DNA of 46,572 nucleotides from Candidatus Hydrogenedentota bacterium (GTDB taxonomy: Bacteria > Hydrogenedentota > Hydrogenedentia > Hydrogenedentales > JAGMZX01). The translations under genes and the position numbers were made by a program. The stretch lies in contig JAGMZX010000029.1 of NCBI GenBank assembly GCA_018005585.1, positions 1 to 46,572 of the forward strand. Direction: 5' to 3'. The notes beneath the pieces are model-generated. The model searched no databases and was not told the origin of the DNA. It was given only the letters and a program-made list of their open reading frames with translations. This document shows, piece after piece, positions 39,498-42,479 of this stretch. The first letter of the stretch is position 1. Each line of letters begins with the position of its first letter.

Positions 39498-39588
39498 AAT
39501 GCATAACACCGCTCATTGCCAAAAGTCTACCAGAAGAAGCCTATTTTGTTCAAAAACAGGCTGCGCCCAAGGGGCCCGCGACGAAAGG

Positions 39589-39617
39589 TCGCAACGCGGC
39601 CGCTTGCCTGCTAATAT
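39589..39617 (+). promoter_or_regulatory. Weak candidate promoter of the rhamnosidase-transpeptidase gene
   Basis: TAATAT (39612-39617) is a fair -10; the base sequence 17 bases upstream, TCGCAA (39589-39594), is a poor -35. The transcript would start near 39624, about 20 bases before the ATG at 39645. Confidence 0.3.
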
Positions 39618-39644
39618 TGCGCGAATTTGGGAAAGGAATCCTTC

Positions 39645-42479
39645 ATGCAGGGTGCGTGCAACGGAATGTTGTTGACGTTGACGGTCTTGAGCGGGCTCGC
39701 GGCGGGCGATGCGATCGACGGCGCGGCATGGTTGCGCGACCCGGTGTTCGCGGGCGTGGAAATCATCGACCTGTTCCACAAGGAAGACGCGGACGGGCCG
39801 AAATTGCGCGGTCCCCGGAATGTGCATACGCTCTTCCGCAAAGAGGTCGTTCTGAAGGAACGTCCTGAACGCGCCACGATTGCCTTTTCGGCGGACGACT
39901 ATGCGAAACTCTATATAAACGGGCAATTCGTGGTTCAGGGGCCCGAACCGGGTTATCCCTTCGCATATCCTTATTGCCTTGTCGATGTTACAGGCTTTTT
40001 CGACGCCGGTGTCAACTGTGTGGGCGCGCATGTGTTTTATCAAGGCCTCCTCAATCGCGTGTGGTGCAGCGCCGACAACAGGTCCGGATTTCTGCTTGCG
40101 CTCGCGGTGCGCTATCCGGACGGCCGCGAGGAACGGTTTGTAACGGAGCCGTCGTGGCGCTGCCTCAGGCTGGAGGCGTTTCCCGGCGAACGCGCTATCG
40201 GCTATGACACGCAGTTCGCGGAAGACATCGACATGCGGCGCATGCCCGTCGGCTGGCAGGCGGCGGGATTCAACGATAGCGGCTGGGCCACGCCCATGAC
40301 CGGGGCCCAAGACCATGTTTTCGTGCGGCAGGTAACACCCCCGCTCCAGGTTACAAAGGTCACGGCCGCTGTAGAAAAGGAGACCGGGGCCGGTCATTAT
40401 TTCTACGACTTCGGGCGCGAGATTGTGGGGCACACGCGCATCCGGGTGCGCGGCCCGGCGGGGCATGTAATTGCGGTGCGCCATGGAGAAGAACTCAGCG
40501 CGCCCGAGACCGTCCGTTATGAGATGCGCGCGAAGTGCGTCTATGAAGAGTTTCCTGTCCTTTCCGGCGGCGAGGACGTTATTGAATTCTACGACTACAA
40601 GGCGTTCCGGTACCTGGAGATTCTCAATGCCCCGGTTCCGCCGGAGGTCTGGGTCGAGGTGCGGCATCATCGCTTCGACGCCGCGGCGGCGACCCTCGAC
40701 GCGGGCGGTCATGTGCTCGAACAGATCTGGAACTTGTGCAAGAACGGCGTCGAGATGGGTTCGCAGGGCGGGTTCTTGGACTGCCCCAGCCGCGAGAAGG
40801 GTCAGTACCTCGGCGACGGCGTGATTGCCGCGCGTTCGCAGATGTGGCTGACGGGCGACCTGTCGCTGACCGGCAAATTTCTCCTCGATTTCCATTATTC
40901 GCAACGCATTTGCCCAGGCATGATGGCGGTCGCGCCCGGGAGTTTCATGCAGGAAATCGCCGAGTATTCGCTGCAATGGCCGTTGTTGCTGGAGCAGCAC
41001 TTTCTGCGCAGTGGCGACCGGGAGTTCCTGACGCTCATGGTGGATCGGGCCTTTCCAGGCCTGTTCGGCTATTTTGCCGGATATGAAGATGAAAGCGGGC
41101 TGCTTTCGCGCATGAAAGAGAAATGGGTTCTGGTGGATTGGCCCAAGAACCTCCGTGACGATTACGACTATGAATATGCGGAACACAGAGCAAATACGGT
41201 TCTAAATGCCTTCTATTACGGTGCATTGAACACAGCGGCGCGGCTCGCACGGGAAACTGGCCGCGACGCGGCGCCGTACGAAGCGAAGGCGGCGCGCGTG
41301 GCGCAGGCATTTGCGCAAAGGCTGGCCGACCCGGCCACGGGCCTCTACGTGGACGCGCCGGGTTCCAAGCATAGTTCGCTGCACGCGAATGCCATTCCCC
41401 TCGCGTTTGGTTTGACGGCGGGCGCGAATCCCGAGGCAATGCTCAACCTGATCCGCCAGAAGCGGCTGAGCTGCGGTGTCTATATCGCAGCCTATGTAAT
41501 AGAAGCGTGTTTCAAGAATAACGCCCCGGACCTGGGGTACGCCCTGATCACGTCCGGCGATGAACGCTCGTGGCTAGAGATGCTGCGGAATGGCGCCACG
41601 GCTTGCATGGAGGCGTGGGGCCCCGACCAGAAATGGAATACCAGCTGGTGTCATCCGTGGAGCAGCAGTCCGATATATTTGATTGTTGAGAACGTCTTCG
41701 GCCTGAGTCCGGGCGCGCCCGGTTGGAGTACAATACGTTTCGCGCCACCGCGCATTCCGGATTTGCCGGCCGCGCAGCTGACCGTGCCGCATCCGGCGGG
41801 CCGGATCACTGTGCAATACACGCCGGTGACGGGCTATACTATCACGGGTCCGGCGGGTGTGGCCATCGAGACCACGGAACCAGAAGGAGCCGCAATTACG
41901 GTGAAAAACACGGCATTGCAAGCCTCGTCACGCTTGCAGGACAGCGACCTCGACATCCTCGAAGGAGCGGGCTGGGCGGAACGCGTGGGTGACGGGACCG
42001 GGGTGTGGGTTTCCGTGGCGCGACAGATGCTCTACGTGATTGAAGGGCAGTGCACGGTCTGGCAGGCGCGCTGCTCGACCGCGGCCGCTGGAATTGGTTC
42101 CGAACTGAGCAGCATGAAAACGCCGCTGGGCTGGCATCGTGTGCAAAAGAAGGTCGGCGACGGAGCGCCTTGGGGGCAGGAGTTCAAAAGCCGGCAGGCC
42201 ACGAACAGGACGTGGCAACCGGGCGAGGAAACAAAAGACGACATGGTCTTGACGCGCGTTCTGGTCCTGGAAGGACTCGAAGAGGGGAAGAACCGGGGCA
42301 AGAACGGGGCGGGCGTGTGCGTCGATTCAACGGCGCGCGGCATATACATCCACGGGACCAACGGTGAGGCGGAGATAGGCACGCCGGCCTCCCACGGCTG
42401 CGTCCGGTTGACGAACGACGATGTGATCGAGTGCTTCACGCGGGTGCCTGAGGGCACACCGGTCTTGATCACGGAGTAA
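39645..42479 (+). CDS. Fusion: GH78 alpha-L-rhamnosidase-like enzyme plus C-terminal L,D-transpeptidase (YkuD)
   Basis: A 944-residue exported protein. An N-terminal hydrophobic segment ending in LAAGDA (about 8-23) looks like a signal peptide, though without basic residues. Residues 25-330 are beta domains like those in front of GH78 barrels. Residues about 340-690 form the (alpha/alpha)6 barrel: FLDCPSREKGQYLGDG holds the Asp379/Glu pair, and CMEAWGPDQKWNTSWCHPWSSSP the later acidic residue. A beta domain closes at about 750. From about 785 to 944 a YkuD domain follows, with VWVSVARQMLYVIEG, TPLGWHRV, and the catalytic HGTN (His903) and S-H-G-C919-V-R. The frame is uninterrupted. GAAAGGA precedes the ATG by 7 bases. 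Substrates of both halves are inferred. Confidence 0.88.
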   Translation: MQGACNGMLLTLTVLSGLAAGDAIDGAAWLRDPVFAGVEIIDLFHKEDADGPKLRGPRNVHTLFRKEVVLKERPERATIAFSADDYAKLYINGQFVVQGPEPGYPFAYPYCLVDVTGFFDAGVNCVGAHVFYQGLLNRVWCSADNRSGFLLALAVRYPDGREERFVTEPSWRCLRLEAFPGERAIGYDTQFAEDIDMRRMPVGWQAAGFNDSGWATPMTGAQDHVFVRQVTPPLQVTKVTAAVEKETGAGHYFYDFGREIVGHTRIRVRGPAGHVIAVRHGEELSAPETVRYEMRAKCVYEEFPVLSGGEDVIEFYDYKAFRYLEILNAPVPPEVWVEVRHHRFDAAAATLDAGGHVLEQIWNLCKNGVEMGSQGGFLDCPSREKGQYLGDGVIAARSQMWLTGDLSLTGKFLLDFHYSQRICPGMMAVAPGSFMQEIAEYSLQWPLLLEQHFLRSGDREFLTLMVDRAFPGLFGYFAGYEDESGLLSRMKEKWVLVDWPKNLRDDYDYEYAEHRANTVLNAFYYGALNTAARLARETGRDAAPYEAKAARVAQAFAQRLADPATGLYVDAPGSKHSSLHANAIPLAFGLTAGANPEAMLNLIRQKRLSCGVYIAAYVIEACFKNNAPDLGYALITSGDERSWLEMLRNGATACMEAWGPDQKWNTSWCHPWSSSPIYLIVENVFGLSPGAPGWSTIRFAPPRIPDLPAAQLTVPHPAGRITVQYTPVTGYTITGPAGVAIETTEPEGAAITVKNTALQASSRLQDSDLDILEGAGWAERVGDGTGVWVSVARQMLYVIEGQCTVWQARCSTAAAGIGSELSSMKTPLGWHRVQKKVGDGAPWGQEFKSRQATNRTWQPGEETKDDMVLTRVLVLEGLEEGKNRGKNGAGVCVDSTARGIYIHGTNGEAEIGTPASHGCVRLTNDDVIECFTRVPEGTPVLITE

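Follow-up and report, generated by a model that had tools for sequence, protein, structure and literature searches.

Why should an enzyme that would remove rhamnose from glycans and an enzyme that would act on peptidoglycan be made as a single protein? The question is raised by a 46,572-nucleotide stretch of DNA from a Candidatus Hydrogenedentota bacterium (the window; contig JAGMZX010000029.1 of assembly GCA_018005585.1, from a genome of 6.08 Mb that is 97% complete), in which one uninterrupted frame at positions 39645–42479 of the forward strand, translating into 944 amino acids with no stop inside, joins a glycoside hydrolase of family 78 (GH78) to a YkuD domain. An earlier note on this DNA had claimed a GH78 rhamnosidase and a YkuD domain with the motifs HGTN and SHGC919VR in one frame, and we were able to confirm this by Pfam, by the translation and by the presence of the same fusion in 26 of the 68 genomes of the phylum that make up our sample. 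The fusion is a new architecture of known parts, not a new kind of system. The explanation that we favour, and to which we give about an even chance, is that one periplasmic protein carries two enzymes, a rhamnosidase serving catabolism and, exported along with it, an L,D-carboxypeptidase or L,D-transpeptidase of peptidoglycan; a carbohydrate-degrading and a cell-wall enzyme would then be coupled in a single conserved protein of a phylum that is poorly understood. The gene and its parts are the following:

39630..39637, +, putative ribosome-binding stretch, purine-rich (ggaaagga), by direct reading; the ATG at 39645 begins 7 bases after it
39645..42479, +, GH78-YkuD fusion gene, 944 aa plus stop (translation, Pfam, orthologues)
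39645..39713, +, signal-peptide-like N-terminus, residues 1–23 (direct reading, hydropathy)
39864..40355, +, GH78 N-terminal domain Bac_rhamnosid_N, residues 74–237 (Pfam 1e-11)
40380..40634, +, GH78 concanavalin-like domain Bac_rhamnosid, residues 246–330 (Pfam 5e-11)
40695..41696, +, GH78 six-hairpin catalytic domain Bac_rhamnosid6H, residues 351–684 (Pfam 7e-41)
within 40695..41696, +, catalytic-domain residues D379, E384, D391 and E656 (alignment to 2okx, conservation)
41700..41825, +, GH78 C-terminal domain Bac_rhamnosid_C, residues 686–727 (Pfam 9e-5)
41874..41954, +, variable linker, about residues 744–770 (predicted local distance difference test, pLDDT, below 50 at residues 757–761; ratio of nonsynonymous to synonymous substitution rates, dN/dS)
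41955..42476, +, YkuD (ElsL-like) domain with an N-terminal helix, residues 771–944, with H903, C919 and R921 (Pfam, models)

All five Pfam matches of the fusion protein exceed the cut-off, and four of them constitute the Bac_rhamnosid set, six-hairpin catalytic domain included, that places the N-terminal half in GH78. The full-length AlphaFold model (mean pLDDT 86.5; besides the N-terminus, low confidence at 757–761, as expected for a linker, and at 842–868 inside YkuD) has solved GH78 rhamnosidases as its first structural matches (3w5n, E 5.6e-45, followed by 3w5m and 2okx), which are only 17–22% identical to the fusion protein in these structural matches. The GH78 half has the same domains and fold as RhaB from Bacillus sp. 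GL1 (2okx) and the Streptomyces avermitilis enzyme (3w5m/3w5n), but, unlike these, the window protein bears a C-terminal YkuD domain. Counted on the alignment, D379, E384, D391 and E656 correspond to D567, E572, D579 and E841 of 2okx; we take the numbering of the review cited next to be that of RhaB (2okx). Asp568, Glu572, Asp579 and Glu841 of alpha-L-rhamnosidase are named as catalytic or binding residues in a passage of that review (PMC12155574), which prints the first carboxylate as Asp568 where the 2okx alignment gives D567. The four carboxylates of a GH78 active site are kept among the fused proteins, with E384, D391 and E656 invariant in all 26 aligned sequences and D379 present in 25 of the 26; H670 is also invariant.

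Estimates of dN/dS by the Nei-Gojobori method in seven pairs, which are rough since most dS values exceed 1, gave 0.05–0.18 for GH78 and 0.07–0.20 for YkuD (six of the seven pairs in each case, one being saturated). The linker, with 11–17 codons only, gave 0.76–1.1 in three pairs and 0.19–0.22 in two, the other two being saturated, and the single close pair (L012/L014) gave 0.11 for GH78, 0.07 for YkuD and 1.1 for the linker. By these ratios, purifying selection acts on both halves. Both halves look functional, and the GH78 domain is predicted to be an active exo-alpha-L-rhamnosidase.

The C-terminal half belongs to the YkuD family (PF03734) both by its domain match (residues 787–942, 2e-22, 80.7 bits against a cut-off of 23.4) and by its HGxN and SxGCxR motifs (HGTN at residues 903–906 and S-H-G-C919-V-R). 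H903, S916 and C919 are invariant in 26 of 26 fused proteins and R921 is present in 23; the three without it, all from genus g6, have a cysteine in that place. This variant, SxGC[IV]C instead of SxGC[IV]R, was observed in L030, L032, L033 and L163 (genus g6) and in L174 and L180 (Verrucomicrobiota), and the six sequences cluster in the YkuD tree (98/93). Modelled alone (mean pLDDT 92.8), the domain shares its fold with Bacillus subtilis YkuD (4a1i; Z 16.9, 116 residues, 2.5 Å), Csd6 (Z 14.2) and Pgp2 (Z 13.5), a comparison that fits carboxypeptidase and transpeptidase alike. The HGxN/SxGC motifs are common to B. subtilis YkuD, the Escherichia coli Ldts and Pgp2/Csd6, and in sequence the ElsL model fits the domain better than the E. 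coli Ldt models do. B. subtilis YkuD, the E. coli Ldts and the Pgp2/Csd6 L,D-carboxypeptidases are exported, and we know of none of them joined to a glycoside hydrolase.

ElsL (NCBIfam NF040925) is the nearest curated family and the best NCBIfam match of the domain, with E 8e-31 and 107 bits, a score that does not reach the family cut-off of 270 bits; this cut-off is narrow, since three short ElsL-like frames of Verrucomicrobiota (99–120 bits) likewise fall below it. ElsL of Acinetobacter baumannii is described in PMC8649774 as a leaderless cytoplasmic L,D-carboxypeptidase of cell-wall recycling, and the orthologues retained there are solely leaderless proteins of 105–200 aa. In contrast, the window protein has 944 residues and a signal-like N-terminus, as have its relatives by eye and hydropathy, and its YkuD domain is fused, apparently exported and below the family cut-off. 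The designation as an L,D-transpeptidase, made in the earlier note, thus holds for the YkuD fold and motifs, while transpeptidation is one possibility only, the nearest family being a carboxypeptidase whose cut-off is not reached. We infer that the domain is an L,D-acyl-transfer enzyme that depends on its Cys and works on the stem peptides of peptidoglycan, ElsL-like yet exported; YkuD domains of the ElsL type, which have been described as recycling enzymes of the cytoplasm, would thereby occur in apparently exported proteins as well. LdcA (PF02016), the canonical L,D-carboxypeptidase family, was found in one of the 68 Hydrogenedentota genomes and not in the other 67, by a search that was positive in 6 of 14 control genomes, and this leaves room for an L,D-carboxypeptidase role of YkuD. 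Members of the phylum are predicted to be Gram-negative, with meso-diaminopimelic acid and lipopolysaccharide, in a passage of PMC11406978.

Residues 1–23 of the window protein are hydrophobic (best 13-residue mean 2.0), early positive charge is absent, and pLDDT is below 50 at residues 1–21. This is the one signal-like stretch of a protein with both active sites intact, as had been proposed, although it is weak; signal segments, here and in the relatives, were assessed by eye and by hydropathy. Because such segments are present, the Hydrogenedentota YkuD forms probably act outside the cytoplasm. The further proposal that the YkuD half needs the fusion for its export is contradicted by the genes that encode YkuD alone, all 22 of which carry their own hydrophobic, signal-like stretch before the domain (best 13-residue mean 1.7–3.1). 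In four of them (L155, L222, L223 and L224) the segment ends in a lipobox-like motif, by eye, such as LAAC, which suggests that some solo YkuD genes encode lipoproteins.

A YkuD orthologue is present in 61 of the 68 genomes, 60 of these 61 having one full copy; in the other seven none was found. The full fusion occurs in 26 genomes of 17 genera and seven families, in proteins 45–63% identical to that of the window and with an identical domain order in one frame. A GH78 C-terminal part cut by the contig end precedes YkuD in four genomes, a decayed GH78 precedes it in five, and YkuD stands alone in 21 genomes (22 genes, one genome having two copies); three cases lie unresolved at a contig end, and in one genome (G011, L149:1793-3385) ankyrin repeats, not GH78, are joined to the YkuD orthologue. 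In another (G025, L163:833-3893) the halves lie in two overlapping frames, either because the gene is naturally split or because sequencing introduced a frameshift. That last case could suggest that two genes were joined in the window by an error of assembly or a frameshift, such as a missed stop at 41900–42000, an explanation to which we leave practically no chance and which is refuted by 26 separate genomes with both halves in one frame. Loss of the fusion in all close relatives, raised as a way in which the idea could fail, is not what we found: the only other genome of the window's genus in the sample (G001) has lost it, and its occurrence in seven families rules out an oddity of one genus.

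How the solo and fused forms are related was followed in two trees, that of GH78 being a quick LG+G4 tree with Shimodaira-Hasegawa approximate likelihood-ratio support (SH-aLRT) only. In the GH78 tree all Hydrogenedentota sequences form one clade, with an Omnitrophota piece inside it; fused sequences flank the deepest Hydrogenedentota split on both sides, and GH78-only ones are nested, which takes at least four changes. The YkuD tree, with good support for only 29 of its 75 inner branches, roughly follows the families, and solo forms adjoin fused ones in family f1 and repeatedly in f10. Genus g35 has the solo genes of G047 and G055 in the same place as the fused gene of G049: G047 has in common with G049 the upstream gene (sulfatase-like by eye), one further upstream and two downstream (63–73% identity), and G055 both downstream genes and further ones upstream, the sulfatase-like gene being absent. 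The signal segments of both solo genes are homologous to that of the fused gene (scores of 76 and 62, where 500 shuffles reached at most 44 and 45). In genus g31, the segment of the solo L160 (G043) resembles that of L019 from the same genus (60 against 39 when shuffled); against L021 it scores 30, a value reached in 51 of 500 shuffles. The resemblance is weaker in G001 (score 38; 2 of 500 shuffles as high), which within the 6 kb compared has no neighbour genes in common with the window locus. Since the segments are homologous and the g35 neighbours are common, we conclude that in g35 and g31 at least, solo forms come from a deletion that removed GH78 downstream of the signal segment. Comparisons for a remnant of the linker in the solo genes gave a mixed result, two of five standing clear of shuffles.

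The five decayed forms have all lost an intact acid motif: E656 is lost in five, D379 in four, D391 in three and E384 in four, the fifth (L146) having a glutamate aligned at the E384 position whose placing is doubtful. H903, S916, C919 and R921 are kept in all five. As GH78 was repeatedly lost or decayed while YkuD stays, the YkuD half is the conserved core that selection keeps, and GH78, judged by these losses, is dispensable. The fusion looks ancestral and would most likely go back to a single event that preceded the split of the sampled Hydrogenedentota families. The natural series of fused, split, deleted-in-place, decayed and solitary forms lets one ask why such fusions last.

RhaA, the L-rhamnose isomerase, is present in 28 of the 31 genomes with the fusion (full, cut or split) and in 17 of the 37 others (Fisher p 1e-4, raw counts); at a completeness of at least 90% the counts are 26/26 and 8/16. 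Hydrogenedentota are rich in pectinases, according to a passage of PMC9765126. On the raw RhaA counts and the pectinases of the phylum, we favour a catabolic exo-rhamnosidase with modest confidence. The RmlC family of dTDP-rhamnose synthesis occurs in 61 of the 68 genomes, independently of GH78 (31 of the 35 genomes that have this GH78 and 30 of the 33 that lack it).

We propose that the N-terminal signal exports both enzymes as one protein, probably to the periplasm, where YkuD would act through its cysteine on stem peptides of peptidoglycan, outside the cytoplasm, and GH78 would free L-rhamnose, most likely from plant or algal glycans, to feed catabolism through L-rhamnose isomerase. By binding its substrate, YkuD would keep the rhamnosidase near the sacculus, and co-export with such a loose wall attachment is the simplest reading of the coupling. 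A stronger version, in which YkuD would be the rhamnosidase's own anchor, its Cys thioester with stem peptides being perhaps long-lived and holding the glycosidase covalently on the sacculus, strikes us as improbable; to our knowledge, self-tethering to the wall is not known for L,D-enzymes. Several observations weigh against the two-enzyme proposal as a whole. The signal peptide of the window protein itself is weak. The f6 YkuD sequences join two from Verrucomicrobiota (98/93), so that the YkuD half of f6 could have a second origin, although a single clade of all Hydrogenedentota YkuD sequences is not rejected (approximately unbiased test, p-AU 0.40). In 21 genomes YkuD does without GH78, and the ElsL score, at 107 bits far short of the cut-off of 270, does not separate carboxypeptidase from transpeptidase. 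Phylogenetic pairing of RhaA with the fusion, on six independent pairs along supported branches, gave a mean of 0.6 for and 1.1 against, in a comparison of little power in which six pairs are too few for significance, and shared descent may explain the link. We found no published experiment on any member of the fusion family.

That the two would be unrelated exported enzymes sharing a signal peptide by historical accident, functionally uncoupled, is an unlikely explanation, though one to be taken seriously. It accommodates the several cases in which GH78 was split off, deleted or decayed, the weaker constraint on the linker than on the halves in three of five computable pairs, and the retention of D379, E384, D391 and E656 in all six aligned GH78 frames without YkuD (five GH78-only and one split; the alignment left out two further GH78-only sequences and two cut ones), but an intact fusion in 26 genomes of seven families suggests some benefit. 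Rather doubtful, in our view, is the idea of the earlier note that the protein remodels the cell's own envelope, GH78 trimming rhamnose from a wall-bound polysaccharide and YkuD editing the adjoining peptidoglycan. Physical coupling maintained across seven families is what it would predict, and RmlC in 61 of 68 genomes makes rhamnose of the cell's own plausible; RmlC, however, does not track GH78, whose retention tracks RhaA in raw counts, and none of the six window neighbour frames scanned resembles a rhamnose-polymer gene. We see very little likelihood in an antagonistic or predatory enzyme directed at the rhamnose-decorated walls of other bacteria. Foreign walls could, on general grounds, be substrate of both activities, but YkuD follows a housekeeping pattern (61 of 68 genomes, a single full copy in 60 of 61, a tree roughly following the families) and no delivery module was seen among the same six frames. 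The periplasmic two-enzyme protein stays the explanation that we prefer.

Outside the phylum, a contig scan with exact peptides, which may miss distant fusions elsewhere, gave matches above 50% identity in records labelled Hydrogenedentota, Hydrogenedentes or Hydrogenedens, with three exceptions: L054, an uncultured bacterium; L053, Nitrospiraceae OTbin.67, whose match is the same as that of G054, listed in the window's order; and L051, labelled Omnitrophota and GH78-only. The L051 frame (L051:4001-6271) is interrupted by two in-frame stops; it is a close GH78 relative, falls inside Hydrogenedentota in the GH78 tree, beside a sequence of family f4, and may represent transfer, decay or a binning error; among relatives of G072, the genome of the L051 record, 35 of 57 give a match. 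At least 113 of 288 Verrucomicrobiota genomes match at E 1e-20, and GH78 was in none of the eight frames of at least 408 aa inspected there. Our literature searches on YkuD, GH78/rhamnosidase, Hydrogenedentota and peptidoglycan gave no report of a GH78-YkuD fusion; in a passage of PMC11653725, GH78 and a transpeptidase occur as separate proteins.

Gene neighbourhood was dropped as a clue to function, there being no wide family and no clear grouping of rhamnose or wall genes in the window. BLAST clustering covered the frames of 39 loci (the end of the window, 14 fused loci and 24 others); among the largest clusters listed, the widest family, the gene and its antisense frames aside, occurs in only 9 of 39 loci; it lies tail-to-tail downstream in eight of the nine, and its L054 member has a borderline TrAA12-like match only. 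The six window neighbours are LeuA, a URO-D-like protein below cut-off, an epimerase, a DHDPS family member, DUF2784 and one frame without a match.

Some variants of the architecture were also noticed. In the window's own genome, L212:737-2965 (G000:C44) has a PGA_cap (CapA-like) domain, then a weak match to the GH78 end, and then a YkuD-like domain that lacks the catalytic Cys and reads HGAD in place of HGTN. An apparent multi-pass membrane protein precedes the YkuD orthologue in L150:3-1586 (G056), cut at the contig start, and in L213 (G034:C587) the fused gene adjoins a GH78-only copy, the second copy being cut at the contig end; the pair is likely a tandem duplication. Antisense to the GH78 part of the window gene lies a long open frame of 557 aa (39513–41186, reverse strand), and comparable shadow frames, which probably reflect a composition effect, face the genes of its relatives in the BLAST clustering.

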